From positions 1 through 64,000 of the forward strand of contig JAKQDD010000055.1 in the NCBI GenBank assembly GCA_029556615.1: a DNA stretch of 64,000 bases. The letters run 5' to 3'. The translations under genes and the position numbers were made by a program. Position 1 is the stretch's first letter; each line of letters begins with the position of its first letter. Origin of the DNA: Verrucomicrobiota bacterium. GTDB taxonomy: Bacteria > Verrucomicrobiota > Verrucomicrobiia > Limisphaerales > J093. This document shows positions 5,068 to 64,000 of the stretch, piece after piece. The notes under the pieces are model-generated. The model saw nothing but the letters and a program-made list of their open reading frames with translations. It ran no database searches and was not told the origin of the DNA.

Positions 5068-5085
5068 CTCGCGCGCGCCTGCATA

Positions 5086-6189: not shown

Positions 6190-6196
6190 GGTAGCA

Positions 6197-6231: not shown

Positions 6232-6248
6232 CTCAGGATCCGCCGATC

Positions 6249-6277: not shown

Positions 6278-6379
6278 CGCCAGCATGCCCCACGAGGGAA
6301 GGCTCGGCGCATGCGCGGTCGTTTCCCAACACGCCGCTCGCTCCTCGGCCATCGTGGCGCCAGCAAAGAACGTGAGACT

Positions 6380-8095: not shown

Positions 8096-8135
8096 CACCC
8101 TTCGCGCCCGACTCCCATCCCCGCGGCAAAAAGGT

Positions 8136-9902: not shown

Positions 9903-9912
9903 CCCCGACAAT

Positions 9913-10156: not shown

Positions 10157-10256
10157 GAGCGCCACCCTGCCGCTTTGTCCCCAGCCGGAATCCCTCGCCG
10201 CAGCGCCCCTCGCAGTCTGTAGCAGGCTCTCAGGAGATTGGCGCCGCGGTTCTGCC

Positions 10257-12248: not shown

Positions 12249-12769
12249 TGCCATTGCCTCCGAACAAACCAGGCCATGGCGTAGCCGCTGACGAACATCG
12301 ACCCCAGAAACAACAGGCTGCCCGTGGCCAACAGCGCCCCCCCGGTCAGCGCCTGACCCGAGGTGCAGCCCGATGCCACCCGGCTGGCGAATCCGGCCAG
12401 GATGCCCCCCCCCAAGGCCATGACAATGCGACGACTGCGTGACGCCGTCGGCCCGCGCTCCAGTTGTGGCTCGACGCGCCGTCCCAGGATCGCCGAGACC
12501 AGCCCGCCGAGCAGCGTGCCGACGAACATGAACACCAGATAGTAACGGAGCGGGTCCTTGCCCCACGCCCCAAAGTAGGCGCTGTCGGCCACGTGTTGCG
12601 GCATGAGGCAGCTCTGCGCGAATGCGCCGGCTCGCGCGATGCCGGCCGACGCCCCGAGCCCGACACCCAAGGTCAAGAAGCTCGCCAATAAGACCAGACC
12701 CAGCAAGACCCCCGCCAGATAGGGGTTCATGTGAGGTTTGGGACCGGTTACGTGAGGGATGGAGTCCAC
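12245..12769 (-). CDS. YeeE/YedE-family sulfur transport membrane protein (first half)
   Basis: 174 aa with four or five hydrophobic segments (AGVLLGLVLLASFLTLGVGL, YYLVFMFVGTLLGGLVSAIL, IVMALGGGILAGFA, LLATGSLLFLGSMFVSGYA). The motif ASRVASGCTSGQALTGGA holds the Cys conserved in YeeE/YedE thiosulfate importers. GTG at 12769 is preferred because AGGAGG stands nine bases upstream; ATG 12730 would shorten the protein by 13 residues. It is probably the N-terminal half of a split transporter whose other half is the next gene, with which it overlaps by four bases. Confidence 0.82.
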   Translation of the reverse strand: MDSIPHVTGPKPHMNPYLAGVLLGLVLLASFLTLGVGLGASAGIARAGAFAQSCLMPQHVADSAYFGAWGKDPLRYYLVFMFVGTLLGGLVSAILGRRVEPQLERGPTASRSRRIVMALGGGILAGFASRVASGCTSGQALTGGALLATGSLLFLGSMFVSGYAMAWFVRRQWQ

Positions 12770-12793
12770 AGCATCGTTCCTCCTGGGCTCGCT

Positions 12794-24927: not shown

Positions 24928-25495
24928 CTTGCCCTCACCGCTGCGATTGGAACGGGATGTCGGGCGGAGGGTACTCAGCGAAATCGATTTCACTCTGTCA
25001 GACGGTGGTGGCTACCAGCCGACGTGTCAAGGCCAGGGCCTTTGCAGTGCAATGGGTGAGAATCCCGCACGGCCGACAAGATTTGCAGACAGCGACATGG
25101 GGAAGTGCTTCACCAATTCGGGGCGGAGCGCACATGGGGCGGCGGGAGGACAAGGGAATCGGAGGCAGACTCCCGGGGCCCTATTCCTTTGTACCCGTTC
25201 CATGCGCGACAGCGCCTTCGCAGCGCGGCGACCCGCGGGACCGTCGGAGCCGGACGCGGACGCAAGGGCTCGGGGCTTGGGTTGCGGCCAAGCCGCGCTG
25301 CGCAGTCTGCGCCTCTTGGCGGCCGTCCCTCTTCCCGTCCTTCGTGCCTTCTGGGGTGCACCTCCCCGCGAACCCGGTCCGCCCGAATGTTCACTCCCAT
25401 CTTGCGGCCGGAGACGAGCCCCGGTAGCGTGCTGGAGTTTCGGAGGTGCAGCCCCCTCAGCAACCGGGCGGCTCCGGAACAGATTCGAGATCACG
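24928..25495. other. Intergenic region between divergent sulfatase and phosphate genes
   Basis: About 570 bases without a convincing gene. In-frame extensions of the DUF47 gene run through it but contain low-complexity Arg/Pro/Gly-rich translations unlike the family. Next to the sulfatase start lies a 12-base palindrome (24980-24991). I saw no recognisable riboswitch or Pho-box-like direct repeat. Confidence 0.55.
24980..24991. promoter_or_regulatory. 12-bp perfect palindrome, possible operator
   Basis: GAAATCGATTTC reads identically on both strands and stands 53 bases upstream of the sulfatase start, inside otherwise GC-rich sequence. Position and symmetry suit a dimeric repressor or activator, but no regulator gene is adjacent. 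Confidence 0.3.
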
Positions 25496-27299: not shown

Positions 27300-30200
27300 T
27301 CACAAGGCCTGCAGGGTGGCCAGCCGCTGCGGATGGCCCCGTGCCGGGATCACAGGCCGCGCGGGACCATAGATCGTGGAGCCGTCGTCATCCGCCCACG
27401 CCGGGGGAACCAGCAGAGCCGGCGTGAGGCGTGCCGGGCCAAGGCTCACCGGCGACTCCCGCGTGAGCTCGATCACCGGAGCGATCCGCCGGTCCGATGT
27501 CAGCGCCGTGCCCGGCGTTGCCAGCGGCGGGTCGAGCTGCGCGCGCGGCGCCGGCTCCACCGCGCTGGGCACCGCAACCGCTGGTGACTCGATTGGCGTG
27601 GCGGTGGCCGCCATGGCGCTCGACAATGGCGTCGCCAGGACCGGCTGCGTAACCGGTTGCGGGACGGGTCGTGGGACGGCAGGCAACGGCGGCGCGACGG
27701 TCACGGGAACCGGCGGAAGACCAAGCTGCGGGTCCGCCAGGACGATCTTCGGCGGGAGCATCTCGGGCGCGAGCACGGAGAGGTAGTGCGCCTGGAACAT
27801 CCCGCGATCCGTCGCGTCGACGACCCCATCCTGGTTCACGTCCAGGCTCGTGGCGTATTGCGCGTCGCCCGTCGCCCGCCCATAGGTCCGCTGGAACCAG
27901 TACGTATCCAGGAAGTCCACATCCCGGTCGCCGTCGGTGTCCCCAAAGTACCGGAAGAACCGCTGGAACCCGTCGTCGCCGCCGATCCCGTCGCCATCGC
28001 CGTCGAAGGCGTTGCCGGCGGCATCCGCCGTCCGGGTGGCGACGATTGTCAGCGTGTAGTTGCCGTCGGGCAGCGAGCCGGCCGGGAGCGTGGGGAAGGT
28101 CATCATCACACGGTTGCCAGCGCCCCGCGTGATCTCGAGGGCCGACGGCGCCAGTGTCTCGCCCGTGGTGGTGTTGCGCAGGCTGAGGCTGCCCGCGCCA
28201 AGGCTGTCGAACACGTCTTCGGTGAACACCAACGCCAGCGATGTGACCCTCGACCGCTGGGCTTCGCCCCCGTTGACCTCGAGGCCGACCAGCGTCGGCG
28301 CCGTGTCATCCAACCGGATCACGCGCTCGACCTCGCGAGCCCCGCTCGCGTTCACAGCCCGCAGACGGATCCGGTTGTCGCCCGGCTCGAGAACGATCCC
28401 CGCAAACTGGAACTGCCCCGTGCCGTCCGCGGTCACCGAACCGTCGTCGAAGCCGTCCCCGTCCAGGTCGAGGGTGACGAGTTGCAGCGGATCCGTCGTC
28501 CCCACCAGCCCAATGGTGGGCCAGTTCGTCAGGTCATCGCCCTGCACGCCGGAATCGAACGCGGGATCCAGGGCAAACTCGAGCGCCGGCCCCGCCCGGA
28601 ACTGCACCGTGTCGATGACCACCCGGCTCTGGCTGTCCGGCCCGATCACGTTGAAGTAGAGCGCCACCAACCGGCCCGGTGAGACCCCTGCCAACGCGAC
28701 CCGGACGACCACCGGGAGTTTCAGAACCGCCGTCTCGCCGCTGGCGCCCGCGCCCGGAACCACCACGCCCTCGCTGTAGCTCACCCGGTTGTCTCCCTGA
28801 ACATTCAGGATGGCATCCGTGCGCTCCAACACCGTGATCGCCGTGGGCAGCGGATTCCCGCTCGACGCGTCGTGCAGGGCGAACTCGAACGCCGCCGGCA
28901 GCCGATCGTTGGCGGGATCGAGCGTCAGGGCGGTCAGCGTGAACTCGAGGAACCCGACCTCCTCGGGCACGAGGAAAACCTGCCACACCTGGCTCACTTC
29001 GTCCGCGCCGCCGGACAGGATCACCGCCCCGTTCACCACCGCCGCGTTGCCGCGCAACATCCACCCGAAGTCGGGCGCCGTGCTATCGGCTTGATCAAAG
29101 CGCCCGTTCAGGAAGGTCCGCGCGCGATTCCCGAAATCGAGGGACTCGAGCGTCTCGCCAGCCGGGGTCACCACGACCGCCCGGGCCAGGTTCGCTGGAG
29201 CTGTGGGCACGAGTCCCGGCTCGGCCACCTGGCACAGCGTGTAGGACCCCGGCGCCACACCGCTGAAGACGTACGCGCCAGCCGTATCCGAACGCGCCGA
29301 GCGCTCGAAGCTGTCGAGCCGCCTGTTGCCGTTCCCATCCAGGAACACCACGGCGTTCAGCACGCCAGGCTCCCCCGCATCCCTGAGGCCGTTGCTGTTC
29401 AAATCCACATACACCGCGCCCTCGATCCGTCCCAGGTTGACGACGGCAAGATCCAGATCGGCAACGTCAATCCCACTGCGAACCGCAAGGGCCCGCCCGG
29501 TGACGGAGCGCTCCGTCAGGGAAACGAGCGTCAGGATGCCCTCGCCCGCGCCAGCGCCGGCCAGCGTGAATTCGCCACCCGGGCCCGTCGCGGCGGTGAG
29601 CTCGCCCTCCTCCACTTGCCCGTTGCCATTGCGATCCAGCAGCACCGTGAGCCCGGCCAACCCCTCCTCCCCTGCCTCGCGCGTCCCATTGCCGTTCCGA
29701 TCGAGGAACACCACGCCCGCGAGGTTGACCGTGTGGAACACGCCGAAGTCGCGCCCGCCCAGGTTGGCGCCGCCGAACGCATCGATCGTGTACTGGCTGT
29801 AGTTCTCCGGGTTCGGCGTGATGAGCGCGTAACCGGGGGCGAGAGTCAGGGCGACGCGCACCGACGTGCCGGCCAACACCGGCAGCTCGTACCGTCCGGC
29901 ATCATCCGTGAACGTCGAGGTCTCGCCGACATCGAAAACACCGTTGGCATTGGCATCCAGGTAGACCGTCCATCCCGATCGCGCAGGCTCTCCGCCATCC
30001 CGCGTGCCGTTGCCGTTGACGTCCTCGTAGACCTGGCCACTGACGGCGACGCTGGGCCCGGTCACTCGCACTCTGCCGGCAGCGTAGTCCGAGAAGACGG
30101 GCACGTGGCCGTCCGCGAAGATCGCGGCGTAGAGGTAGTAATCCCCCGGCGCCAGGGCCGACGTGTCCCAGGTGTAGCTGCCAGCCCCGTCCTTCTCGGC

Positions 30201-33200
30201 CAAACCCGACGCCAGCACGGTACCGTCGTATCCTGAGCCGTCACGGTCGTAATACAGCACCACCGCCGCCTCCGTGCCCGGAGCCATGGCGTTGTAGCCG
30301 ATCTCGACGCTCGGTCCCGTCTGGTCCGCCGTCGGCGCCGTCAGCTGAATGACCGGGTCCGGCTCCGGATTGTCGCGCAGGGCGTTGAACCTGACCTCGC
30401 CCAGCTCGCTCGCGTCCGGCACGATGATCCGCCAGGCACCGGCCGCGGGATTGGCGATCACCACCGTCTTCTGAGTGGCGCTGGTGAGCGACTCGACCAC
30501 CGCCATCCCGTTGGCCGCGAGCTCGGCCTCGGTCACCCGCGTGCCATCCGGCTTCTCGATAATCACGCCGGGCGCTGAGGCGGCGGCTTCGTCCCAAGCC
30601 GCGTTGAGCAGCAGGTACTCGGCCCCCGCCCCGACCTCGAAGGCACTCGAGGCTTCGCCCGGTGGCGCTCCGGCGATCCCGGCGCGACGGTTCAGCAACG
30701 CGACCAGAGCCGGGCCGGTCAACGCGGCCACCTCGTCCGCTCCAAGCCGGCGATAGCTCCCGTCGAAATTGACCTGGATGCCGACGATCTTCTTGCCGAC
30801 CAAAGGCAGGTCGACCTCGCCCCAACCCGCCACGAGTCCCCTTCCCGCTGAATACTGGAACATGGCCTGTGCCGTCCCGAGCGTGCTGCCGCCGATCACC
30901 GGCACGATGCTGGGGATGATCACCGAAGCGCTGCCCCGGCCGCTGATGCTGAAGCCGCTCGGCGTGCTCGAGATGTTGAAGCGCGCGGTCTCGGTGATCA
31001 GCCCGCCCAGCAACCGCAACGTGCCATCAATGTAGAACGTCCCAGTGCGCCAGTTCAGGCCCGCTTCCAGATTGCCATCAGCCAATCCAACCATCTCCTC
31101 GATGTCGCCCACGACCACGACCTGGCCTTTGCCCTTGATCCCATCCAGACTCAGCGTGGCCGAGAGCCGCAGGGCGAGCAGCGTGCCCTCATACGGACCG
31201 CCCGCCCAGGACGGGACCGGCACCGGGATCGTCGGCCCGGCGGTGAACGCCAGGCTGCCCGTGATCTCGACCGCGGCCTCCGGATCGGAGATGTTGTCGA
31301 TCTTGGCGCCGATGCCATAGAGGAAGGCGCCGGTGGTGCCGATGGCGATGCCGGTTGGATACGGTGGGATGGGCTCGATTGTGAGGCCGACCGTGTTCAG
31401 CTTCGACTTGTAGAAGCCGAGCGTGACTTCGAGATCGATCCCCGGCGGGAACGTCAGCTTCGCGGAACCGGCGTAGAGGCTCTTCTTGGTGTCGATCTCG
31501 AATACCGTCTCCTTGAGGATCCACTGGCCCGGGACAATCTCGATCTTGCCGACTTCGAGCTTGCCGGCGAAATTGACCTCGTTCTTCTCGGCGCGCCGGG
31601 CGATCTCGATGTAATAACCCTTGGCCTCGGAAATGTCCGCGCGGACGGTGAACTTCTTGATTGTGATCGCAATGATGCCGTTGACGCGGAAGCTGTCTTC
31701 CTTGGTCTTCGCGTCGCGGGCGTAGGTCAGCTTCAGCTGTTCGCCGGTCACCTCGATCTCGTTGAAGAGCGTGAACCGGATGTTGTCGAAGGTGACACTG
31801 CCGCCGGTGAAGTAAACTTCCTCCTCATTGATCACCAGCCAGTTCTTGTCCTTGACCTCGCCCTTGATGCGGCCGCCGCCGATCAACTTGCCGAATTTTT
31901 CCGGCAATTCGAGCGAACCCTGGAGTGCGATCTGCGGTTCCCAAGTATCCTGGTTGCTATCGTCCCGATCGGGCTTGAACTCGAAGCCAAAGATCGTCAG
32001 CGTGACGCCGAACACGCCGAGCTTCACGCCCTCTGACTTCGTCAGCGTGATCGTGTCCACCTTGCCGTTCTTGAACACGATGGTGAGCGCGGCGCTGTCC
32101 TTGTCCGGGCTGTGGACTTCGGCAGAGGCTGACAGTTCACTCTCAGTGCCGTCAGGGTTGAGTTTGTAGGTGATCTCGATCTTCTGGAGGCTCCACCCGC
32201 CCTTGATGTCGATCTTGTCCTTGCGGATCGCGAGGTTGGCCGAGAACACCAGGCCCTTGTCCGTCGCCTCGACGGTCACGTGCCGGTCTTCCTCGGTTTC
32301 CGGGTCCTTGCCGCTGATGTCGATTTCGAGGTCGCCGAGGCTGGGGATGATGAACTTGCCGCCGAGCACCGCCTTCTTCTCGTCCTGGGTGTAGGTGAAG
32401 GCGAGGGTGGCGTCCTTGGTCTGGACCTCGATCTTGCCGAGGAGCTTGAACGGCTTGTCGCCGGCGATCGTCAGCAGGCCGCTCTGGACTTCGATCCCCT
32501 CGTTGTGCACCAGCAGCCACGTCTCGTTCCCCTCGTCGTCCGTGCCGCCGAAGCTGACCTCGATCTGCGGGTCAGCCCACTTCTCGGGGAGCTTCATCGT
32601 GCCTGCAAACCCGAGCTGCGGATCCCATTCCGGTCCTTCCTCGGTATTGCGGTCGGTCCAGAACTTGACATCGGTGATCACCATCTCGATCCCGAGCAGG
32701 GTGAACTTGAAGCTCTCATCCGGTGAGATCTTCAGCGTGAACTCCTGCGGCGTCAGGTGGGCCTCGAAGTTGTACTCCTTGGTCGCGCCGCCGTCGGTGG
32801 TCGGCGCGATGACCTTCGCCTTGCCGTCCAGCACCGGCTTGGCCGGGTTCTCGGGCTCCGAGATGTCCACCGTCAGAACGATGTCCTTGACCTGCCATTT
32901 CCCATCCTTGGTGATGTAGAACGGACCCGTGAGCGTGATCTCGCCCTTGACCTCGATCCCGTCGCCCCGGAACCGGATGTACTTGTCCGTCCCGGTGAGA
33001 TCGATGATCACGTCGCGTTCCTTGCCGCCGGCATCGGTGGCGTACATGGTCGTCAGCGTCACCTTGACCTGGAACTGGACGTAGTAGCCGTCCGCGTCCT
33101 TCCCGAACTGGAGCGACGGATCATCGAACTTCGCCTTCAGACTGCGGAAGACCTTCCCTTCCGCATCGTCCTTGAGCTTGAGCGGTTCGTTGTCCTTGCC

Positions 33201-36200
33201 GTTCTGGATCCCCTGCTCGTTGATCTCGAGGCGCTTGCCGTCCGCGTCCGGGACGTTCACCTTGAAATCGTTGTCCACGTCGCCCGGGTTCCCGACGACG
33301 GCAGACGGCAGGTCGCCCTGGCCAGCCACTTCGATCTGCGGATCCCAGCGGTCGGTGTCGCCGTCGTTTCGGTCGTTGTCGAACAGGATCTTCAAGCCTT
33401 CCTTGAACTTGATCGCGTTGACCTCGATCTCCTCGGGCAGGTTGCTGGTCTTCCACTCGAGCTTCGCGGCCGCGCCATGGCCGGTCTTCTCGAAGGAGAC
33501 GTCGAAGACCGCCTGGCCCTTGGGCCCGTGCACCGCACCCGCCCCGGTGACCGTCCATTCGGCCCCGGTGCCGCGAGTGATCTTCACCTTGAGATTGCGC
33601 ATCGACCACTCGTCGTTGATCCGGGCCTTCTCGATCAGGCCTTCGCCCTTGAACTCGACGCTGGGACCGCTTGAACCCTTCGTGATCAGGAGACTGCCAT
33701 TGACCAGATCGAGCTTCAGAATCGCGTCGCCGAGGTCGGGCAGGGTGTATTCACCGCCGAGGGCAAACGACTTCGCCGCGTGGTCGTACTTGAAGCTGAT
33801 CTTCTTCGCCACCAGCTTGAAGCCGTCCAGATCGAACGTCACCCCGAGGTTGGTGCCGAAGTCGTCCGGAACCTCGAACGCGCCCTCGAAAACCACCCCC
33901 GACTGGCTGATCCGAACCCCGTCGGTCGGAAAACTGTTGAGGTATCTCTGCCCTGACGCATTCAGCGCCGATGGAATCTCGATGAACGGATTGAACCGGA
34001 TCTCGCCCGGGTAGTCCGTGGCCCCCGCCACCCTCGGGGCGGCGTTCAGCGAGATCGTCAACTGCTCGGTCCCGCCCGCTGTGTTGAACGTCATCGGGAT
34101 GCCCGCCAACTCGAGCAGGTTGCTGATCACCCGTCGGAACTGGCCCATGGACTTGCCGATCTCGAAGACCGCGACGCCGTCGACGAGGTCGCTGCCGACA
34201 TCCCCGACCAGCGACCGCCACGTGCCATCGAGCGTGATCCGGTTGGCAGCGCTCGCCGGCACGCCGTCCGCCGGGAACTGAATCGTCACCGTGCCGATCA
34301 GCTTCGCCAACGGCACGAAGGTCCCGCCCCCCTCCGGCTCGAGACCAAACTCGGTGGTCCCCGTGAACCAGGCCTTTCGGGTCTTGTCGTCCGTCTGCCA
34401 CTTGCCATCGGGCTCGAACCGCAGCGGCGAGGTGTCGCCATAGGGCGCATTCTGCTGTTCGGTGTTGTTGTCCTTGTCCTTCTCGGCGACGGCGGAACCC
34501 TCCTGGGCCGCCACCGGCGGATCGCCTGCGAGTCCCACCTGGCCCGGAACCATGGCGGTGCCCGGCCCCGTCGCCTGCGGCACGTCAAGCCGGATGATGT
34601 ACAACAACGCCTCCGGATCGATCCCATTCGGCACGACGATATTCTCGAGATCCAGGGTCAGCATCCGCTCCCGCGTGTCGAGGGGCAGGAACACGCCGCT
34701 GAATTCCACGCCGCCCTTCAGCTCGGCCACCCGGTAGTGCCACACGCCGTTCGCCGGGTCGTTCGGCGCCTCAACGTCCTCGTCCGTGCCGATCCACACA
34801 TCCTCGACCCACGCGACCCCGTCACGGACCTTCGCATCGCCCTGATTCGTCACCTTGTAGGCGAGTTCGGGCGCATCGCTGAGCAGCACGAACTTGCGAG
34901 TCTCGGAGTCGAACCAGAGCCAGGGCCGTTCAATTTGCGTCACCGCCAGGTCCGGCAGCAAGAGCTTCACGTCCGCCCGGAACGTGTTGTTCACCTCGTT
35001 CCCCTCGACCAGCACGTTGTCGACATCCAGCCGCACCTCCCACTTCAGCCCCGCCAGGACGTGTTCGATGGGAATGCCCGGATCGCCCTTCTTGAGCGCA
35101 ATCAGCGGGAAATCGACGGTGATCGCCCGCAGCCCGGCATCGCGGTAGACGTCGGCGCCCATCCATTGCTCATACCCCCGGTCGTTGACCAGGTAGAGCT
35201 GCTCGAGCCACAGCACGCCGCCCGTGGCTGAACCCTCCGCCAGGCTCACCACGTACTGGACCGTCACCGTCTCGCCCGGCTCGAACGCCTGTTCCGGAAA
35301 GACCTCGACCTTGAGATCCTCCGTGATGCTGACCCTCGAGACCAAACCCTGCGGCCGGCCGTTGCCGGTCTCGATGCGGCCCAGGAAAACCTCGGGGTTG
35401 ATCTGGTCCAGCGGCTTCCGGGCGAGCGTGGCGGCGTCGGCTCCCTTCACGGTGGCGATGAGCTTCTCGACGTCATACACGTACACGCCGCGATCCTGGC
35501 CGCCCCGATACCCGGCAAACAGCTTCGTGCCGTCGGGTGACAACACCAGGTTGTCCGGGAAACTCAGCGGCACCATCTGCGTGGCCGCCACCAGCCTGGG
35601 CGTCCCAAACGGATCCTCGATGATGCCAATGTTGCCGCCCGCCGTGAATGGACGGATGTTGGGATCGTGCGACGGCAGATCCTGGATGAACTGATTGAAC
35701 GCGGTGACGAAGGCATAACTGTTGTCAGGCAGCACCACGACGCCGATGGCGTTGTTGACGTCGAAGGCATCCGTCACCAGGCCCAGAATCAAGTCGGCAA
35801 ACCGCGTGACATAGCCATCGAGAGCGCCGAACCCACTGCCGTCCGTCTGCCGGTTGACGAACACGATCTGGCCCGGCTCCATGCTCGCCGAGACGCCGTA
35901 CGGCTCGTTCGCGGCTGTATAGGCCGCCTGGAACTCCAGCGGCCCGTGAATCGCCGCCCCCTCCGGCAACACACGGAACGCAAAGATGTAACCCGCCGCG
36001 TGATACCCCGGCCGCCCGAACATGACCGAGTTCGGCGCCGCCACATACACACGGCTGTCATCGGCATCCACCGCGATCCCGCGCAGCCCGCTCGGAGCCG
36101 GCCCGACGCTGGCCGCCTGGATCATCCGATGGTACTCGGCGGAGGCAGGATCGGCGTCGATGACGTAGACCGTGCCCACGGCTTCGTCGGTCACGTAGAC

Positions 36201-39200
36201 GTACTTGTTCGAGTTGTCGGCGGCGATCCAGAACGCATTGGCCCCCGAGGGCAGCATCACGGGGTCGATCTCCAGCGTCCCCGGATCGGCATCGATCGGG
36301 CGCAAGCCCACCGCATCGAACACCGCAACCTTGTTGGTGCCGTGGACGGCCACGTAGATCCGCGTCAGATCCGCCGTCAGCGCCACCGCCCGCGGCGTGC
36401 CCCACGGCACGCTCAGCCGCGCCACCGGCAGCGGAACCGCAGCGCGGGCGTCGATGACGAGGATCTGGTTCTCGCCCGATAGCGCGGCGAAGACGTACCG
36501 GTTCTCGATGGGCAATCGGACCGCCTCACTCTCGACGGTCACCGTCTCCGTCACCATCGCCGTGCCCGTCTCGTTCTCGACCAGGACGTTCTGCTCGCGC
36601 GCAATCCGGATCTCGACCGCGCCGACCGCCACGCCCGACGGCACGGTGCACTTCACCTTCTTCTCCGCAGGACTGTAGACAAGCCTGCTGCCGTCGACGA
36701 AGTACTCCCGGCCCGTCGCCTCGGCGCCAAACCCGGCCGTGCCGGTCTCACGGAAGATGACCGTCAGATCCTCGAGCCGGGCGCCGATCCCATCCGGCGC
36801 ATCCGCCCAGAGCAGGCGCTCGACGGTGAACGACAGCACACCCTCGGGCCCGCCCCCGAGATCCTCCCAGGCATACGTGACCCGCGTGACAACCGGCGGC
36901 TTGCTCGGATGATCGTCGGGCAGCACGGTGTTCTTGAATGTGCCGGAGACACTCACCTCGTCGTCCGCCAGGACTTCGACCGTGGTCGTCGTGTACACCG
37001 GCGCCGGCGTGTCAATCAGCTTCTCACAGTGATAGATGTCCTTACGCCCCGGCGTCGTGCGCAGGATGTACTCGTAGATCCGGTCGATCTCCTGCTCCAT
37101 CACATCGTAGACCAGGGTCTTGACCAGCATGAACGTCCCGAGCGCCATCACCGGAAAACTCTGCGTCGCCGCCCCGCCGGCCCCGTGCAGACCCGTGCCA
37201 CCCGCCGACGGAACCATGAGGACATAGAAACCCGTCGAGGTCGCCGCGACGGGGCTCTCGAGCGACACACGGCCCTGCACCACGCCCGTGCCACCCGACG
37301 GCGCCGCGCTCACCAGATAGTCCCCCGATTCGAGAATCCCGGTCGTCGCCTCGCCTGTCCCCGTGCGCGCCAACCCATCCGCTCCCACCGTGCCGAAATC
37401 CGCCTGCAGCCAAACCCGCACCGGGTTGCCATCCGGTCCCGCCAGCGTCGCCGCTCGATAGAACGCCACCTCGGTCCCCGCCGCCAGACCGGTCACCGGC
37501 ACCGCCACATCCGCCGGCCTCAACAACACCGCCGATCCCATCTCGAGCCGGAACGCGCCTCCGAAGATCTGGCCCTCGAGCAGGCCGAACGGCAGCTCGG
37601 CCGGCGTCAACCCCGCGAAGTTGACCAGCGTGTCCCGCTCGAGCGCGTGGGGCGCGATCGACAGGATGGCGCCGTTCGCCGCCTGCAGCAGGCCGCCAGC
37701 CGGCCCGACCACCTTCGGCATCGCCTGCGGCGTTGCGACGCGGACGGACACAAGCTTCTCCGCGAACCGGTAGATGACGGTGATCGTCGTCTCCCCCACC
37801 GCTGCACCGCTGACAACACCCGCCGCGCTGACCGTCGCCATCGTCTCGTCCCCGGAGAGGAACAGCGCGCCCGCCGCCGGGTCGGTCAGATCCGTGCCGT
37901 CCGGATGCTCGACGTAGAGCGATTGCGACCCGCCTTCCGGCACCGTCAGCGCGTCGGACTTGAGCCGCAAGCCCACCTGATCCAGCTGAACGTCAGCCGC
38001 CGATGCCGCCGGCCCGACGCGGAACGCCGTGGCGGCCCGCAGCGAGCCGCGCGTGACGATCAACGCCCCGTACCCGTCCGCCAGGGCAGCCAGCACGCCG
38101 CGCGACGTGACCGCGGCCGCCCCCGGATTCGTCGACGCAAAGTCGAGGTACGACGCTGGCAACACCACCCCGGTCTCGTCGGTGAAGTCGCCCTGCACCC
38201 GGACCGCGAACGTGCCGCCCGCCTCGAGGCGCGGACCGCGCTCGATCAGCTGGATCCGCACCAAAGGCGCAGCACTCACCTGGACGGTCACCGTCGCTTC
38301 CGCCGACCCCAGGGTGCCGTCGTCGGCGACGTACGTGAAACTCGCGGGACCAGTGTAGCCCTCTTCAGGCAGGAAGAGCACCGTGCGCCCATCAAGGTCG
38401 AATCGGGCGATCCCGTGCGCAGCCCCAACGATCTGGAACATCAGCGGATTGCGATCCGCGTCCTGGGTGAGGCTCGCCAGATCGACAGCAACCTCGAGCC
38501 CCAGATGCGTGCGCACCGTGCCGGCGCTGGCGACCGGGGCGCGATTCGCGACAAACCCATAGCCCGCAGTCCCAAGCTGGAGGTCCGTCGCGTTGATCCG
38601 GCCGTCCCGGTTGATGTCGGCCGCCCTGACATAGCCGGCTTGGCCTTCCACCGAGCCCTGCGCCGCAGCGATTCGGGCGGCGTCAGTCCCGTTGACCGCT
38701 CCATCGCCATCGACGTCGCCAGCGAGCGTCACGGTCACTTCAAACACCCCCGCACCCCCCGTGGCGCCGGACACTCCGAGCCGGTGCAGCCCCGCCGCGT
38801 CGATCCGGTACACCCCGTAACTCTCTCCCGCCGTCACGCTGCCCAGCACGAGCTGCGCCCCGGGAATCTCGGCGAGCGCCGGCGCGAACCCGCTCTTGCC
38901 AGTCACCGTGACCCCGAGCAGAACCTGGCCGGTGGTCGAGGTGGCGAACTCGGCCTCGCCGATCGCGAACGCGTACCACTGCGATTGGCCCGCCGGGACC
39001 GTGCCGCTCTGCGCCATGCCGAGGAACAGACGCAGCGACCCGAGCGCCGACCCAATGCTCTCCGTGCCGGTAAAGCGGCCCGCCGCGTCGTAGTGCACGG
39101 CCACACTCGGACCCGGGGACGACAGAACCGTCGTGAGGCGCGATCCGGCATCCGCGGCGTAGGCAAAGAACTGGCGCGCGCCGGTCTGGAGGTTGGCCAC

Positions 39201-51200: not shown

Positions 51201-54200
51201 GCGCAGGTCGGCGTACGGCGCCAGCGTCACCGCGAACGGCAAGGACGCGCTCACGTTGTTCCCTTCCTGGGAGACTTCCGGGACCCTGCCCGTGGCATCG
51301 GTCTGGACCAGCAGCCGGTACTCCCCTTGCACCCCGTCCGGCAACCGGACCGTCAACTGCACGCTGTATTCCGCCCCGGGCGCCAGCGCCGTCCCCTGCA
51401 CCGCCTGCCCCAGCAACAGGTCGTTGCCGCTCAACACCGCGTCCGCCGACCAATACACCCGGTCCGTCCAACCGCCCGAGGCGGCGCCCGTCCCGTCGTT
51501 CCGCACCACCCAGGACACCGCCACGTCGCTGCCGGACGTGGTCGCGGCCGGGGTGCTGATCGTGCTAACGACCAGATCCGCGCTCGTCACTGCCGTCTTC
51601 ACCTCCGCACGACCGGTGTTGTTGGACTCGCCTGCCCGTTCGAACACCTTGTCCGTCGCATCGGTCACCACCACCAGGGTGTAGGCCTGCGCCTTCATCG
51701 ACGGCACCGTCAGCGTCTCCGTCCGCGTGTAGCTCTCCCCCGCGCCCAGCACGCCCGTCTGCTCGTAACTCCCCAGCTCGACCGCACCGGCGACCGAGCC
51801 GTCCGCCGACAGGTAAACACGATCCACCCAAGAGCCGCTCGCGGCCGCCGTCCCCTCGTTCCTGACCGTCCACTGGACGCTGACCGATTCGCCCACGACC
51901 GCAACCGCCGGGCCCGTGATCGTCGTCACCCGCAGGTCCGCCGTCGGCGAAAGCGCCACGGTCACCGCCGAGAGCGTGATGCCAAAGTTCGGGCGCTCGC
52001 CCGGCGCCTCCGCCACCTCGCCAGCCGCGTCCGTGACCACAAACACCCAGTGCGGACCGGCGTCGAGGTTGATCGGGAGGGTCACCGACTGCGCCACCGC
52101 GTAGCTCGCGCCCGCCGCCAGCGTCCCGATCCGCCGCACCGCGCCCACCTCCACGTCGCCGCCCAGTACGGGATCCCTCGAGACATACACCCGATCCCAC
52201 CACGCCCCCGCCGCGGTGCCCGCGGAACCCGCATTCACCACGCGCCAGGTGACTGACACCGTCTCGCCGGTCATGGCCGCGGCCGGCCCCGTGACCCCTT
52301 CGACCGCCAGATCCGGCGCTCCAATCTGAAGGGCGCGCGCATTCTGGTTGTTCGATTCGTCCGCCTCCGTCTGCTGGCCCGCCGCATCCGCAACCAGAAT
52401 CAGATACTGACCGCCCACCGGCGTTCCCGAAGGCAGCGTCACGATCCGGGTGATCTCGTAGCTGGCCCCCGCAGCCAGCGGCGTCTGCGTCGAAACCGTC
52501 TCTGTCACCAGCAACCGGTCGCTCCCGTCAACCACCAGGTCCGACGACAAGTACAAACGATCCACCCAGTCCGCCAGCGCCGCCGCGCCGCCGGTGTTCT
52601 TCACCGTCCAGGCCACCTGCAAGGACTCGCCCCAACCCGCCGCCGCAACCGCCGCAAAAGCGGTCACTGCCAGGTCCGGCGCCGTCACCACCACCGCCGC
52701 AGCCCGGACATTGTCTTCCTCGACCGACTCCGTCTGGGCCCCGGATGCGTCGGCAACCACCAGCAGATAGCGTGTCCCAATCCCCGCCTGCGCAGGCACC
52801 GTGACGTTCTGCGTCACCGTGTACGTGCCATCCACCGCCAACGGCGACCGCGCCGCCGCCGACTCCGTCACCAACGCCAGATCGCCGGCATCGAGGATTT
52901 CGTCCACCGACCAGTAAACCGTGTCCGTCCAGTCGGCGAAGGCGCTGCCCTCGCCGATGTTCCGCACCGACCACGTGACCGTGATCGTCTGGCCCCAGCC
53001 CACCATCGCCGGCACCGTCGCGCTCGTCACCACAAGGTTCGGCCCGCGCACGGTCAGCACCCGCGCCATCCCGTTGTTGCCCTCGTCCGTCTCCGGTTGC
53101 GCCTGGCCGTGATCAAGAACCACCAGAAGATAAGGGCTGACGACCGTGTCCTGGGGGATCGTCACCGCCGCCGTCAGGGTGTATGAGGCTCCCGCCGCCA
53201 ACGGCGCATGCGCCGCCGCGCTCCGGCTCGCCAGGAGAATGTCCGCTTCGTCCAGAATCGCGTCCGCCGAGAGATAAACGCCGTCGGCCCAGCGGCCGTT
53301 CGCAGCCACCAGACCCGGGTTCGTCACCGTCCACGAGAGGCTAATGCTCTCGCCCCAGCCCGCCGTCGCCGGCACGCTGAAGTCCGTGACCGCCAGATCC
53401 GGCAGGACCACCGCAACCCCCCGGCCCAGAGCGTTGTCCCCGTTGTCCGACTCGGGCTGCATCCCCTCGGCGTCGGCCAACACCAGCAGATAAGCCGTGC
53501 CCGCTCCCGCCATCGGGAGCGTGACGGCCGTCTGCAATGTGTACTCGGCACCGACCGCGAGCGGCGACGCCGTCTCCGCAGACACCGTCGCAAGAAGCAG
53601 GTCATCGACGCTCCACGTCGCGTCCTGCGACCAGTAAACACCGTCGCTCCAAATCGCCGACGCCGGCTTCGCCCCCAGGTTCGCCACCGTCCAACCCACC
53701 GTCACCGTCTCCCCCGTCGCAGCCGTCACTGGCGCGGTCACCGAGCGCACCACCAGATTTGCCGGCACTGCCAAGTCGACCACCGCCTGGACCTGGGTCG
53801 TGTCCCGGGTGTTGTTCCCGCGCGAGCCCACGACGAAATCCAAGGTGTCCCCCGCGGCCACCGTGATGGGACCCTGCGACGCGAACCGGGTATCGACGCC
53901 GTAACCGTCCACCGCGCCGTCAAACAACGGCTGCCCATTGAGCAGCACATGAACGTCGGTCGTGGTGCCGCGGGTGCAGACCCCCCGGAACACGGCGCTC
54001 ACCATCGCGATGCCAGCCTGGCTCGCCGTCCAGCGCAGGACCGCATACTGGTTGTTTGCCCCCGGATGCAACGTCAGCGCTCCCGGGGCCCAGACCGTGC
54101 CGTCCGCAGTGATGGTCGCCGCCGTGCGGTTGTACTGCACGGCGGGATGGATCGTGCCGTTCTGATTGCCCAGCCAGCCCTCGATACCGCCGATCGTCCT

Positions 54201-57200
54201 CGATTCCATCGCCCGCGCAAACGCGCCGCCCAAGGTCGGGCTCCAACCGTAGCTCCACAGCCCCGCCGGATTCTCCGTCCCCCCGAATTCGAGCGCGGCA
54301 TCGAACCGCTCCTGGACCGTCACCGACGCCTTCACCGCGTCGGCCCGGGCCGGCGCGTCCGCGTACGCCGCCCGCACCTCGAGGACCCGACGCGCTCCCA
54401 ACGCGACCGATTCGGCCCGCACCACCACCCGCACATCCCTCGATCCACCCGCTTCAATCCCTCCCGTCAGCCACCCCGCGCCCGTCACCGCCTCCGTCAC
54501 GTCCGCGTCGCCCCCCGCCACGTCGTAATAGGCCACCTGCCATCCCTCGCCGCTGCCCGTCCCCTGGACCACAAAGGCATCGACCGCGCTCCCCCGGTTC
54601 ATGATCCGCACCACAAACCCGGCTTCCTGACCCGGGCGCAGGGCCTGATGAACCGTCTGCCCGGCCGCCGTCGCGTCGTATACCGTGCCGCCTGCATACT
54701 CCGTCTCCCACGAGTTCCGGATCATGAGATCGGGCGCCGACAACACCTCGACCGGCGCCGCCTGCACGTTGTTCGCCGAGTCCGCCTCGAATTGCACATC
54801 GGCGCCATCCGTCACAAACAGCAGATACCACGTCCCGGCCGCGACGTCGCCCCCGAGCGCGAACTGGCCCTGCCGGGCGTACTCGGCGCCGGCCGCCAGC
54901 GGGCTCGAAGCCGCGACCGGCCCCATGAGCAACCGGTCGTTCCCGCTCCACACGGGGTCCGCCGACAGGTAGACGGCATCGGTCCAGGCAGCGCCCGCAT
55001 CGCGATTGCCCACGTTCCGCACGACCCAGGCAACCGACACGGTCTGTCCCCAGAACAACGCGGCCGGACTGGCCGGAGACTCGAGGCTCAGGTCCGCCGT
55101 CCGCAACAGCACCGCGGCGCTGTACACGTCCAGCGTCGCCTCCCCGTTCGCGCCGTTCTGGTTCTGGTCCATCGCGTTTCCGGCCAGATCCGTAATCCCC
55201 GGCCCCAAGGTCAGGGTGTACGTCCCGGGCGCATGCTGCGCCGTGAAGCTCACCCGGAACGTGGTCGGGCCAAGAGCCGTGACCCCGCTGACCACGACCG
55301 GCCCGGCGGGGCCGTTCAGGACCGCATCCTCGACCGTGAACGACGCGGCGCGCACCGGCTCGTTGAAGCTGACGTCAAAGCTCGATAGCGTGTCGTTAAT
55401 GCTCTCCGCCGGCGTGATGCCCGTCACTCGAGGCCCCGACCGCTCGATCGTGAAACGGCCCGTGTACGCCGCGGGCGTCGCCGGATCGCTCACAAACACC
55501 CGAACCCGATCGATCCCCCAGCTCTCGTCGCCAATCCCCTGGAGGTTGCTGCCGCGGAAACTGACCTGCAGCGCGGCCCCCGTGTGCGGGAACACGTAGA
55601 GGACGTTCTGGTAAACGTTCTCGTTCCACCCGGAGCGATAGACGTTCTCCGCCCTGTCAGGCACGCGCGGGAAGGTCTGGTTGGCCCAATCCAACGTGCT
55701 GAAGGTGTACGTGAACTCGTCCGCCGGCCGGTCCGGCGCCAGCACGCCAAAATAGTCCGGGCCCGGACTGCTGTTGCCATCCCAGCTGTCGATGATCAGC
55801 AGGTCCCACTCGAGCCAGACCTGCGCGTGCGACGGCAATTCCCCGAGAGAGAGCACCACGGTGAGGTTGTCGAAGTCGCCCAGGAACTGGCTCAACGCGG
55901 CGTTTCCGGACACGGTGGTCACACTCCACTCGGCTCCCGCGCCCGCCTCGAAGTCCGTGTAGTAGGCCGGCTGCGCCATCGGGTTGCCCGCGAGATCCTC
56001 GAGGTCGGGTCCCACCACCACCAGGTAATCCCCGTCCGCCGCCTGCACCGGGAACCGGATGTCGAAGGTCGTGCTCTCGGCATCGACGACGATCACCTCG
56101 ATCGCCGCGGCGGGAACAGCCCCGTTGGGCCCGGTCACGCTCACATCCGCAGCGGTGAACGTCTCCGCCCGCACCGGCTCGTTGAACACCACTCGGACGC
56201 TCGAGACCCCCGAGTTCACCGGCCCCGATGGTGTCTGCTGCACAAGGTACGGCCCGCGACGATCCTCGACGGTTAACGGCAACGCCACGACGTTGTTGGT
56301 CTCGTTCGACTCGGCCTGCGCGGCGCCAACGTCAGCGACCACCAGGATGTACCAGGCGCCGGGTGCAATCATCGGCACAACCACGCTCCGCACAGTCAGG
56401 GTCTCATAAGCACCGCCCGCCTCCAGCGCAGCCGCCCCAGCCCCCACCGTCGCGAGCCACCGCTCTCTCCCCGTCAGAGTCGGATCCGGCGAGAGGTAGA
56501 CCGCGTCCGACCAGCTCTTCACCGTCCTGCCATCGCCGTCGTTGCGCACCCGCCAGGCGACGTCCAGTTTGCCACCCGCCACGGTCACCGCGGCATCGAG
56601 CGACGCCTCTGTCACCGCCAGATCCGGCGCCCGCAACGCCAGCGGCACCGACCGCACGTTGTTCGCCTCGTCCGACTCCGGTTGGGCGCCGGCCAGGTCC
56701 GTAATGAACAGGAGATGGACGGCCCCCAGTTGGGACGGAATCGGGAGCGCCACCTGGACCGCAACGTCGTAGGTGGCCGAGGGCAGGAACTCGGACGCGG
56801 ACCGCCCCCGATCGAGCAGCACCGCGAAAATGTCTGCCACCAAGGTCGAACTCGAGAGCGCCACCCGATCGGTCCACGCCGCCAGCGCCGGGCCCGTTCC
56901 TTCGTTGCCCACCGTCCAAGCCAACGTCACGGTCTCGCCCCACGCCGCCGTTGCCGGCGCCGAAGCCGCCAACACCTGAAGGTCCGCCCCCGGTATCTGG
57001 ATTGCCTGGATCCATTGGTTGTCGTTCTCGCGCACTTCCGGTTGCGCGGCGTCATCATCCGTGACGATGATCAGATAGCGGGTCCCCAGCCCGCTGGTCA
57101 TCGGCATCGTCACCGGTTGCTGCAGCGTGTAGGCCCCGCCACCACCGACGAGCGGGTGGAACTCCACCGGCGGTTGGCCTGCCAGGGTCGCCAACACCAC

Positions 57201-60200
57201 ATCGTTCGCGTCCAGGATCGGATCCACGCTCAGGTACACCCGGTCCGCCCAGTGACCCAACGCGTCGCCCGCACCCGTGTTCGACACCGTCCAGCTCACC
57301 GAGAAGCTCTCGCCCAGCCCCACCGACGCCGGAGCCGCCGCGGACGTCACCTCGAGGTTCGGTCCCGGCAGGTCGATCGCAACCGCCCTGACATTGTTCG
57401 TCTCGGCGCCTTCGCGCAGCGTGCCGAATGCATCCGTCACCACCAGCAGGTGCTCGAGCCCGGCCGCAGCCAACGGCACAATGACCTCCCGCGTGAACTC
57501 GTACTCGCCCTGCTCGGCCAGCGGCAGGACCACCACCGCATCCGCCGACGTCAGCAGGACATCCGACGCATCCCACTGATCGTCAGCCGAGAGGTAGACG
57601 CCATCAAACCAGCCCTTCACCGCGGTGGCGTTCCCCACGTTGCGGACTTTCCAGGTGACCTCGATCGTCGAGCCCCAGTCCGCCCTCGCCGGCGCCGTCA
57701 CGGACACGACCACCAGGTCGGGCTGGCTCGTGCTCACCACCTCGACCGCGACCGCCAACGCGTTGTTCCCTTCCGCGAGCTCGCTCTGCTCGTCCCACCG
57801 ATCCGTCACCACGAGCACATGATACTCGCCCGCGTCGACCATCGGTATCGTCACCTTCGTGGTTGCCAAGTACTCGCCCCCGGGGGCGAGCGGCGTGGTC
57901 TGGGAGCGCACCACACTGCCCAGGAAGAGATCCGTGCCATCCAACGTGCTGTCGACCGAGAGGAACACCGCATCCGTCCAGGTCCCCTGCATGTCGCGCG
58001 AGCCCCGGTTCACCACGGTCCAGCCCACATCGACCTTCTCCCCCGCCGTGAGTCGCGTCGAGACCGTCACCTCGGACACCGCGAGGTCCGCGCCCGCCAA
58101 CGGCGCCGTCGACGGCACGCGGGCCGGCTGCTGATCCGCATTGCCACCCCCCAGCGTGGCGTGCACGCCCAGCGCGGTCTGGTCAAACGCAACCGCGCCG
58201 TGCGTCTCCGTAAACCGCCAATAGCCTGCCAAGCCCGCCGTCGCGTCGTCGAGCACACGGTCCCAGTCATGGAGTATCTGCTCCACCGTGCGCGCCATCG
58301 TCCACACCCGCACCTCGTCAAGATCGCCGGCAAAGAACCGGCGCGATCCGTACGCACCCTCGTCGTCGTTGTGCTTTCCGATCGACCACGCGGTGGCGCC
58401 GTCCGGCGCTTCCGCAACATACGCAAAATCATCCACCAGCGCCCCGTTCAGGTAGGTCCTGATCGAGTTGCCCTCGTACACCACCGCCACGTGGTTCCAT
58501 TCCCCGGCAACGACCGCCAGACCCGTCAGCTCCCGCAGCCCGTTGTGGTACTCAACCGTCAGCATCGAGCCGCCTTCCCAGACGTTCAGGCCGAACCCGT
58601 GCCCGTACTTGGACTGGACATCGCTGCTGATCACGTTGCTCGGGAATGCGGTCCCGTCCGTCCGCAAGGCGGGCCGCACCCAGGCCTCGAGCGTGATCGG
58701 CAACTGGTTCGTGACCGGCGTCGTCGCCGTCGTGGCGTAGTCGTCAACCCCGTCAAACCGCAGAGCGTACCCGGCTGGGTTCAGTGTGCGTATGAAGAAG
58801 CCCAACGTGCCCGCCCCGCCAGCCTGATACCCGCCGCCGCCGGCCACCGTGCTACTCGCGAATCCCTGGAACCCGGCGCCGTCGGCATAGTACACCGCGA
58901 TCCGCCCGCCGCCGCCCCCGCCGGCCCAATACGCGCTCGAGGCCGTACCCCCTTTCGCCTCGAACCGCCCACCCCCGGTCAGCACGTTCGTCGTCACCCA
59001 CAGGCTCCCGCCCGCACCGCCCCCGACCTCGACCCCGCCATAATCGACCATGGACTGGCCGTTCGCCGAGATGACACCATCGAGGGTGAGCGTGCCCGCG
59101 ATCTGCAGTCGGATCGCCCCGCCGCCGGCGCCGCCCGCAGACTCATTATCAGGTGCCGCCCCCGATCCCAGATCGACCGGCTCGAACACGCTGCCGTAGG
59201 TGATCCCGCCAGCCCGACCTCGACGATCCGATCCGCCGCGGCCTCCATGGCCGGCACCGGGGCTGATGTCGTCCGGCCGGGCCGTTGTCCCGGGCCCGTT
59301 GCCCGAAGGACCACCTCTCACTCCACCCGTGTAGCCCAGCGCATCCGCCGTCATGACCGAACCCGAGTCCACCGTCACCGCGAACGCCCGGATGGTGACG
59401 CCCGCTCCAACCCACGCTCCCTGGACCTCCGCCGCCTGGTTCTCCGAGTAACAAAGCAACGTCGAGTTGCCCTTCAGCCACAACGTCGTGTCGACCGTCA
59501 GCAGCGCTCCCCCCGCCATCTCGACACGCGCGCCGTCATCCAGCGTCACCGCCCCCCAATGCAGGGCGTCGGCCTTCGCCAGCACCGCGCGCTCGAACAC
59601 CTTCAGATGCCCACCGGAATACGCGGTGTTGAAAAAGAGTACCGTGCCGGTCCCCCCGGCGTTGTAGCCCGCCCCGCCAGCCGCCGTTGACGCCGTGAAC
59701 CCCGTGAATCCTGCGTCGTCCGCCGCATACACCGCGATGCGCCCGCCGCCGCCGCCGCCTGCCCAATACGTGCTCGAGGCCGTGCCCCCTTTGGCCTCGA
59801 ACCGCCCGGAGCCCTTCAACACATTCGTCGTGACCCAGAGGCTCCCGCCCGAACCGCCCCCGACCTCGACCCCGCCGTAGTCCACCATGGACTGGCCGTT
59901 CGCCGAGATCACCCCGTTCAATTCGAGGCTCCCCGCCACGATCAGCCGGATCGCACCGCCGCCCGCTCCGCCCGCGGATTCGTTGTCCGGCGATGCTCCC
60001 GACCCGAGGTCCGTGGGTTCGTACTGGCTCCCATAGACACTCCCCCCAGCGCGCCCCCGCCGGTCGTAGCCGCCCGCCCCGCCGTAGCCCGCGCCAGGGC
60101 TGATGTCGTCCGGCCGCGCCGTCGTGCCCGGGCCATTGCCCGAGGCGCCGTTCCTCACCCCTCCCGTGTAGCCCTGCGAATCCGCCGTGATCTTCGATCC

Positions 60201-63200
60201 GGCCTCGACCACGATGTTCCCGGCGTTGAAGGTCACCCCCACACCCGCCCACAGGTCTTGCACGAGTCCCGTCCGGTTCTTGCCCCCGCAGATAACGGTT
60301 GAATCGCCCGTCACTTGGAGACTCGCCGCTTTCAACGTCGAGCCGCCACCGAGCGCCAGCGTCGAGCTCGACATCAACCGGATCGTCTCGGCAATGTTGA
60401 TCACGCTCCCCTCGCCCCACGTGAGGGTCGCTCCCGGGACTCCCTCGGTGCCCAGGGTCACTCCGCGCAGGCTCGTGGTGGTGTCGCCCCAGAAGGCGAA
60501 ATGCTCGAAAACGTGCAACACGGTTTGCGCCAGAGCCAGTCCCGCGGTTTGATCAAAGAACCCTGTAGTTCCCCGCGCGCCGGCGTTGCCGCCCGTGCCC
60601 CCGGCGGCTGTTGATGCCGCGAAACCGGTGAAATCTGCGGCGTTCTGATAGTACACGGCGATCCGCCCGCCGCCGCCGCCGCCGCCATGATAGGTGTCCG
60701 AGGCGGTGCCGCCCTTCGCCTCGAACCGGCCAGCCCCTTCGAGAACCTTCGTCTTCACCCAAATGCTGCCCCCCGACCCGCCCCCCGCCTCGCCTCCCCC
60801 GGAGATCATCTCGCCATTGGCGGAAACGACCCCGTTCAACGTGAACGTGTCCCCGACAACCAGCCTGATGGCCCCACCACCCGCGCCGCCCGCTCGCTGC
60901 TGGTCTGGCGCGCCGCCCGAGCCCAGAGCCGCCGGTTCGTACGGATCGCCATAAGCCGCGCCCCCGGCCCGGCCACGGCGGTCGTATCCGCCCGCACCAC
61001 CGTAACCCGCACCGGGCGCGATGTCGTCAGGACGCGCCACGCTCCCTGGGCCGTTGCCCGAGGGCCCATTCGCCACACCCCCCGTGTACCCCTGCGCGTC
61101 CGCGGTCACCCACGAACCCGCGTCGAGGATCAGGTTTTCAGCCTGAATCGTGACGCCCACGCCCGCCCATTGCCCATCGATCGCGGCCGTCGTGTTCTTC
61201 CCCAGCAACGTGATCGTCGAGTTGCCCGAGAGCCGCAGTGTCCCTTCCACCACCAACACACTGCCCCCCCCCAGAACCATCGTCGCTGCGTCGTCCATCG
61301 TCAGCGCGCCGAACCGCAAGGCGGTGTCCTGGCCAAAGACCACGTTCTCGAACACCCGCACGTGCGCGTTGACAACCGACGTGTCGACGAACACCGCACT
61401 CCCCACCGTGCCGTTATGCCAACCCGCACCCCCAGCCGCCGTCGTCGTCGTGAACCCGCTGAACGCCTCGGCTTGCTCGTAGTAGATCGCAATCCGCCCC
61501 CCACCTCCCCCGCCCGCCGCATAACCGCTCACCCGATTAGCCCCCTTCGCCTCGAACCAACCCGCCCCGCTCAGCACCTTCGCCGTCACCCAAATCGATC
61601 CCCCAGACCCCGGACCGCCATGCTCCGTCGACATCGCCCCGTTCGCCGAGATCACGCCCTCGACCCGCAGCGTTCCCGCCACAATCAGCCGGATCGCCCC
61701 ACCGCCCGCACCGCTCCAGCGCCCTTCCCAACTCGATCCGCTCGATCCCAAATCCACCGGCTCGAACACCGAACCATACGTCGGCCCGCCCCCCTTGCGC
61801 CACTCGCTCCCATAGCCACCCGCTCCTCCGTAACTCCCGCCGCCTCCGGCATACGCTGAGTGCGGGAAGGTGGCACCGCCCGGACCAACACCCGCCCCCT
61901 GGCTTCCCGCATACCCCTGACCGTCCGCCGTGATCTTCGAGCCCGAGTCCACCGTCAGGTTCTCGACCTGCAGCGTCACCCCAACACCCGACCATTGCTC
62001 ATCCACCTGCGCACTGGCGTTCTTGCCGCCCAAGGTCAACGTCGAGTTGCCCTTCAGCCGAAGGAGTCCCACGACTTTCAGGTTGCTGCCGCCCCCGAGG
62101 AACACCGTCGCGGCATCGTCCAGCGTCACCGCCCCAAACTCGAGAGCCGTGTCATTCCCGAACACGGCGTTCTCGTAGACATACAAGTGCGATTTCGCCA
62201 CCGACGTGTCGATGAACACCGCGCTCCCCACCGTGCCGTTCTGCCAACCCGCACCCCCAGCCGCCGTCGTCGTCGTGAACCCGCTGAAGGTCTCGGCTTG
62301 CTCGTAGTAAATCGCAATCCGCCCCCCACCTCCGCCGCCCGCCGAATAACCGCTCACTCGATCAGCCCCCTTCGCCTCGAACCATCCCGCCCCGATCAGC
62401 ACCTTCGTCGTGACCCAAATCGATCCCCCAGACCCCGGACCGCCATGATCTGTCGACATCGCCCCGTTCGCCGATATCAAGCCCTCCACCCGCAGCGTCC
62501 CATCCACGATCAGCCGGATCGCCCCACCGCCCGCACCGCTCCAGCGCCCTTCCCAACTCGATCCGCTCGATCCCAAATCCACCGGCTCGAACACCGAACC
62601 ATACGTCGGCCCGCCTCCTTTGCGCCAGTCGCTCCCATAGCCACCCGCGCCGCCGTAGCTCCCCCCGCCACCGGCATACGCTGAGTACGGGAAGGTGGCA
62701 CCGCCCGGACCAACACCCGCCCCCTGGCTCCCCGCATACCCCTGACCGTCCGCCGTGATCTTCGAGCCCGCCTCCACCGTCACATCCTCCGCCTGGACCG
62801 TCACCCCCACGCCTGCCCAAAGCCCATCCACCTGCGCACCGGTGTTCTTACCGCCCAAGGTCAAGGTCGAGTTGCCCTTCAGTCGAAGGAGTCCCACGAC
62901 TTTCAGGTTGCTGCCGCCCCCCAGGAACACCGTCCCGGCGTCGTCCAACGTCATCGCCCCAAACTCGAGAGCCGTGTCATTCCCGAACACCGCGTTCTCG
63001 TAAACATACAGGTGCGATCCCGACACCGACGTGTCGATGAACACCGCGCTCCCCACGGTGCCATTATGCCAACCCGCACCCCCCGCCGCCGTCGTCGTCG
63101 TGAACCCGCCGAACCCGACCGCCTCCTCGTAGTACACCGCAATCCGCCCACCCCCTCCGCCGCCAGCCCCGTAACCGCTCACCCGATTAGCCCCCTTCGC

Positions 63201-64000: not shown

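Follow-up and report, generated by a model that had tools for sequence, protein, structure and literature searches.

Results

The locus and its reading frame

We analysed a 64,000-nucleotide stretch of DNA (the window), which corresponds to bases 1–64,000 of an 88,229-base contig (C78) free of N. The contig belongs to a binned 7.2 Mb draft genome of 260 contigs, with 94.7% completeness and 7.45% contamination. The minus strand of the window encodes an 887-aa protein in which a sulfatase is fused to DUF3472 and DUF5077 domains (22330–24993), as well as a protein with three rhodanese domains fused to a metallo-beta-lactamase domain (12794–14812).

The remainder of this study concerns one very large minus-strand gene. 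The ORF listing of the window contains a 12,220-aa frame starting from a GTG (27300–63962), and 12,232 codons without a stop extend from 27,300 to 63,998, still open at the window edge. The first-pass annotation had described this open frame but understated it. The frame extends beyond the window edge on this contig as far as an ATG at 69,870–69,872, with an in-frame upstream stop at 69,933, and an alternative GTG start lies thirteen codons upstream of the ATG. From the ATG, the 42.6 kb gene encodes 14,190 residues with a mass of 1.468 MDa, a pI of 4.4, and a Cys content of 0.08%, in agreement with the earlier estimate of more than 1.2 MDa and a missing N-terminus. Reading the contig past 64,000 thus provided the start that had been anticipated; however, the expected signal peptide is absent, and a LEPR-XLL motif is found instead.

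An equally long open frame would arise by chance with a probability of ~1e-146 at 66% GC. The GC contents at codon positions 1, 2, and 3 are 0.66, 0.51, and 0.86, and this pattern holds in each 1,000-residue block. Because this pattern is consistent with coding on the minus strand alone, we assign the gene to that strand. The antisense plus-strand ORFs within the gene, which include 36909–44171 (2,420 aa) and 44172–48938 (1,588 aa), exhibit mirrored codon-position GC and 19–23% Arg; we rejected them as real genes, as mirrored GC and ~20% Arg mark them as shadows of high GC3. Only one tandem array, a weak one, was detected in the window part of the gene, and promoter and terminator scans at both ends of the gene found nothing. 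Collectively, the frame is a genuine single coding gene on the minus strand, and a false frame is excluded.

Table 1. Features of the giant gene and of its product (window coordinates unless stated otherwise)
Feature	Position	Strand	Residues	Remarks
Window part of gene	27300..64000	-	1,958-14,190	followed by TGA stop
5' part of gene	contig 64,001-69,872	-	1-1,957	outside window
LEPR-XLL motif	outside window		10-29	NCBIfam NF012209, 21.5 bits, cut-off 17
Gly-rich repeats, first array	outside window		143-999	
LamG/pentraxin	outside window		about 1,108-1,264	
Big_13 and Big_5	outside window		1,432-1,955	
Gly-rich ~275-residue repeats, second array	58779..63821	-	2,018-3,698	beta-helix-like; no Pfam family
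Laminin_G_3	58275..58754	-	3,707-3,866	lectin-like
Six CARDB with interspersed Big_5	54768..58088	-	3,929-5,035	
Seventeen consecutive CARDB	47058..53759	-	5,372-7,605	variable-number, putative stalk
PPC, ~650 residues of no known family, beta-propeller-like stretch, Big_5	43383..46970	-	7,635-8,830	
Nine He_PIG	40500..42989	-	8,962-9,791	Ig/cadherin-like
Rhs/YD-repeat-like stretch	38733..39905	-	9,990-10,380	weak match
Dockerin type I	38577..38723	-	10,384-10,432	found in most orthologs
Big_9/Cadherin_5	38283..38546	-	10,443-10,530	
YncE/PQQ-type beta-propeller stretch	36063..36500	-	11,125-11,270	
Lys-rich all-beta module	30693..34175	-	11,900-13,060	three ~200-residue repeats; no Pfam match
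Three SdrD_B	29232..30032	-	13,281-13,547	
C-terminal dockerin type I	27804..27944	-	13,977-14,023	
Pro/Ala-rich C-terminal tail	27303..27725	-	14,050-14,190	no known family, RTX repeat, or sorting signal

Domain organization

Based on Pfam and NCBIfam scans, the chain combines domains characteristic of extracellular proteins and of adhesins, the latter as the first-pass annotation had proposed (Table 1). It contains 23 CARDB domains in total (residues 3,929–7,605), and its dockerins match PF00404 with 49.4 bits over two stretches. The YD-like stretch reaches 14.4 bits with YD_repeat, under the cut-off of 15.8, and matches Tse5, an Rhs protein in the PDB, with an E-value of 0.016. No glycosidase, peptidase, lipase, nuclease, or other catalytic family was found in the same scans, and PDB sequence searches gave no usable match.

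Neighbouring copies of the second Gly-rich array share 81–84% identity in protein and 80–82% in DNA, with a dN/dS of 0.27–0.32 and an excess of third-position change. A copy could have been collapsed or lost in the assembly, and the Gly-rich copy number given here may be wrong. AlphaFold predicted a beta-helix-like Gly-rich repeat (pLDDT 70) and an all-beta Lys-rich module containing long strands (pLDDT 49.5); both models are of poor quality. The former has no significant match in the PDB. For the latter, the fold matches (LptD, ApoB, and ushers) were weak, with none under an E-value of 0.001, and were discarded. Similarly, a nanobody match to the Gly-rich profile (E 0.0087) was disregarded as probably due to chance.

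The LEPR-XLL class

The LEPR-XLL motif begins ~10 residues past the ATG and scores above the curated cut-off of 17, with 21.5 bits for the protein and 28.5 bits in the genome search. The giant therefore belongs to the little-studied LEPR-XLL class of giants (NF012209), although the motif comprises only ~24 residues and is uninformative on the rest of the chain. In relatives, the motif likewise lies near the extreme N-terminus and is preceded by a short basic stretch.

Eight LEPR-XLL hits were found in this genome, two of them below the curated cut-off. The seven other frames, located on contigs C118, C30, C255, C209, C12, C219, and C127, span 10,132, 9,535, 8,357, 7,365, 6,293, 4,301, and 859 aa, the last being truncated by a contig end. 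With eight such hits in one genome, the earlier suggestion that this protein is the main fibre or matrix scaffold of the cell is unsupported. The seven share little with the giant beyond the motif and some CARDB, Big_5, He_PIG, and SdrD_B domains. RTX-type repeats are numerous in four of the seven (25–64 each), and the giant has no strict match to the RTX nonapeptide GGxGxDxL. Several of these frames end in a dockerin-like EF-hand.

Within the order, 20 of 97 genomes carry LEPR-XLL hits, one of them having nine along with a frame of 17,972 aa; in a phylum-wide draw, the proportion is 24/388, and single-contig genomes in this draw contain LEPR-XLL frames of 14,158, 17,103, and 19,216 aa. LEPR-XLL frames in other genomes include ones of 17,972 aa (G053:C21), 19,216 aa (G341:C1, single-contig), and 20,466 aa (G338:C142). 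A LEPR-XLL giant of Vibrio bears C-terminal RTX and serralysin domains (PMC10868602).

Orthologs and selection

Colinear orthologs of the giant are present in independent genomes. The ortholog in G024 has 10,043 aa, with 30–60% identity across residues 5,400–10,800 and lower identity up to about residue 12,000; that in G118, a single-contig genome of 4.73 Mb, has 10,034 aa. Over 10,024 codons, dN/dS between these two is 0.099, and the pair is thus under strong purifying selection. The ratio falls to 0.05–0.06 in the segment with the PPC and propeller core; most replacement changes fall within the first 2,000 codons, and codons 3,001–6,000 have the fewest.

A core of PPC, propeller, nine He_PIG, YD-like stretch, and dockerin is arranged in identical order in Verrucomicrobiota, Lentisphaerota, and Planctomycetota, as judged from ten orthologs, two of which are from one genus. 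Its most conserved portion runs from PPC to Big_5 (residues 7,635–8,830). Core identity is 61% for the named relatives in Verrucomicrobia, about 52–54% for the three best loci in Lentisphaerae (44% for a fourth), and 58% in the best segment of a Planctomycetota draft genome. The Lentisphaerota frames span 11,283, 10,950, 10,299, and 9,123 aa, while the Planctomycetota frame is broken by a frame change.

The He_PIG block numbers nine in every ortholog examined, with a tenth hit outside the block in G321:C6. The CARDB number in complete frames is 16, 22, 23, 30, 34, and 34. Both counts rely on profiles trained on this chain, and G016, G285, G320:C116, G321:C6, and G322 have incomplete or broken frames in which the N-terminal side is undercounted. 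The presence of the Gly-rich repeats and of the Lys-rich module also varies among orthologs. Of 313 genomes from the order, 5 contain the Lys-rich module, which is also present in the Planctomycetota record. The C-terminal dockerin was not seen in the closely related orthologs G024 and G118. Since He_PIG is fixed at nine and the CARDB number and other modules vary, these data are most simply interpreted as a constant head on a variable stalk.

In the core tree, the Verrucomicrobiota sequences are not monophyletic (AU p 0.0015), and a further analysis gave a similar result. Two Lentisphaerota genomes carry two copies of the core each. Either transfer between phyla or an old duplication would explain the non-monophyly. 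Separately, two orthologs have broken frames, G016:C3 (L092) and G322:C375. An in-frame TAG within the Lys-rich module breaks one of them and a frame change the other; these interruptions reflect either sequencing error or decay.

Possible export and cell attachment

A hydropathy scan revealed no signal peptide, transmembrane helix, or anchor in the giant, whose highest hydropathy window (1.89) is below that of a shuffled sequence (2.31). No autotransporter beta-barrel or TPS domain was found in Pfam and NCBIfam scans. The first 60 residues match no Pfam family at E-values up to 10, including Planc_extracel (PF07595), the planctomycete extracellular motif.

The type I exporter models HlyD (TIGR01843) and LssB (TIGR03375) gave no match over the cut-off in G000 and 19 relatives, whether or not the genome has LEPR-XLL; divergent exporters may be present. 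The type II secretin GspD is uninformative because it is matched in all 20 genomes. From the RTX and serralysin domains of the Vibrio giant, different LEPR-XLL proteins may use different export routes.

Cohesin domains above the cut-off are present in this genome in three proteins of ~2,100 aa, one in each. Cohesins also occur in genomes without LEPR-XLL hits (G032 and G083) and were not seen in the core-bearing G008, G016, and G024. Judging from these domains, calcium-dependent docking of the giant's dockerins onto cohesins of its own genome is possible. In another genome, a cohesin-type domain (G081:C298:2580–2957, L133) is the convergent neighbour immediately downstream of the G081 giant ortholog.

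Discussion

The combination of LamG, CARDB, He_PIG, SdrD_B, and dockerin modules suggests an extracellular adhesive chain, and an adhesive or structural role outside the cell is likely on the basis of these domain assignments. More specifically, we favour, with some reserve, an extracellular adhesive fibre of the LEPR-XLL class whose 14,190 residues come from one gene. For its export, orientation, and adhesion, we infer the following arrangement. At the very N-terminus, the LEPR-XLL motif would act as an export mark. The fast-evolving Gly-rich repeats and the LamG lectin domains would form a distal end that binds ligands or polysaccharide, and the CARDB array would be a stalk with its length tuned by copy number. 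The core from PPC through the propeller, the nine He_PIG, and the YD-like stretch to the dockerin, together with the dockerins, would be the functional part, probably attached to the cell or matrix, and possibly docking in a calcium-dependent manner to secreted proteins that bear cohesins. Such a chain would most likely be one of several giants with which the cell attaches to particles, to polysaccharide, or to other cells. Evidence that weighs against this reading is the lack of a signal peptide, transmembrane helix, or anchor in the hydropathy scan and of a type I exporter over the cut-off, the missing C-terminal dockerin in G024 and G118, and the uneven distribution of cohesins relative to LEPR-XLL and the core.

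Among the alternatives, an artefact, in which repeats were wrongly joined or the frame is an antisense shadow of plus-strand genes, can hardly be right. The genome is a contaminated, binned draft of many contigs and the Gly-rich copies are similar in DNA; however, the longest exact direct repeat in the gene is 107 bp, the codon-position GC matches the minus strand only, colinear orthologs exist in independent genomes, one of them single-contig, and dN/dS of the ortholog pair is 0.10. The repeat length and the orthologs likewise make it very unlikely that the repeats are an assembly artefact, a concern raised in the first-pass annotation. That the giant stays inside the cell, as an intracellular or periplasmic structural protein, is very unlikely. 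The missing Sec signal peptide and transmembrane segments would fit such a protein, whereas the domain families and the low Cys content are those typical of proteins outside the cell, many RTX-type repeats occur in four of the genome's seven further LEPR-XLL frames, and the Vibrio LEPR-XLL giant has C-terminal RTX and serralysin domains (PMC10868602).

Two further readings concern what the exported chain would do. A role as predatory weapons has been suggested for giant proteins of the PVC superphylum (PMC12057145, PMC10066038), and the present one could be a wall- or polysaccharide-degrading predation protein, not an adhesin, as proposed for Omnitrophota giant genes. The weak match of its YD/Rhs-like stretch to Tse5 points in this direction, but the scans found no glycosidase, peptidase, lipase, or nuclease domain, and the transmembrane helices, 42 in the V. 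archaeovorus giant, are absent; we regard such a weapon as unlikely. Slightly less probable is a cellulosome-like scaffold, in which the dockerins plug into cohesin-bearing scaffolds or the giant organises secreted enzymes. The giant has two dockerins and its genome has cohesins over the cut-off, yet these are three single cohesins with no array seen in this genome, the giant itself lacks a cohesin, and dockerins are known as non-cellulosomal modules of giant ORFs (PMC10066038).

Beyond the adhesive fibre that we favour, LEPR-XLL could be the address label of an unrecognised megadalton export route in PVC bacteria that is independent of Sec and type I systems, and the core a cross-phylum adhesion device moved between Verrucomicrobiota and Lentisphaerota. 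We put this forward as a doubtful but not negligible extension.

The overall plan resembles that of type I secreted RTX adhesins such as LapA, BapA, and MpAFP, in which binding modules sit at one end of a long, repetitive Ig-like stalk; in contrast, the giant has no RTX repeats, and the HlyD and LssB models gave no match over the cut-off in 20 genomes. Ebh of Staphylococcus aureus, a 1.1 MDa surface adhesin of a Gram-positive bacterium, shares the megadalton size, but its domains are unrelated. Compared with other LEPR-XLL giants (NF012209, LEPR-8K), the N-terminal motif, very large size, and repeat richness are common, whereas this giant lacks RTX and has its own conserved core. The planctomycete Fuerstia marisgermanicae likewise has many giants per genome, with predictions of adhesion and carbohydrate binding; it belongs to another phylum, and its largest giant gene is 36,239 bp, shorter than the gene described here.

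PVC bacteria are enriched in huge proteins, in which Dockerin_1, Big_9, and cadherin-like domains rank among the commonest modules (PMC11573180), and many giant genes occur in Planctomycetes (PMC5177795). Lengths of up to about 85,800 have been cited for giant proteins (PMC12057145), and peptides were detected for an Omnitrophota protein of 39,678 residues with 42 predicted transmembrane helices (PMC10066038). This protein, from V. archaeovorus, and other Omnitrophota and PVC giants share with ours the superphylum, giant size, and LamG and dockerin modules. Our giant is smaller, has another architecture, and lacks transmembrane helices, and the Omnitrophota giants are reported with few annotated domains. 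As PVC, Omnitrophota, and planctomycetal giants have already been described, size alone is not new; the conserved core family appears to be new within a known kind of giant, no description of it having been found in the literature searched.

Descriptions of PVC giants usually present them as strain-specific and difficult to classify. A giant of 10–14 kilo-residues with true orthologs in three phyla allows comparative study instead of a case-by-case approach, which is feasible because these orthologs combine purifying selection in the tested pair with a core of fixed number and a varying stalk. Furthermore, the question is sharpened to how 1.5 MDa chains are exported with no recognisable signal peptide, RTX, or classical type I exporter over the cut-off, and the single-contig relative G118 is a place to look for the route. 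As a minor observation on the window itself, a small LamG protein on the plus strand (5284–6189) ends in a hydrophobic stretch followed by CRRRP, which appears PEP-CTERM-like by eye and is unlike the C-terminus of the giant.
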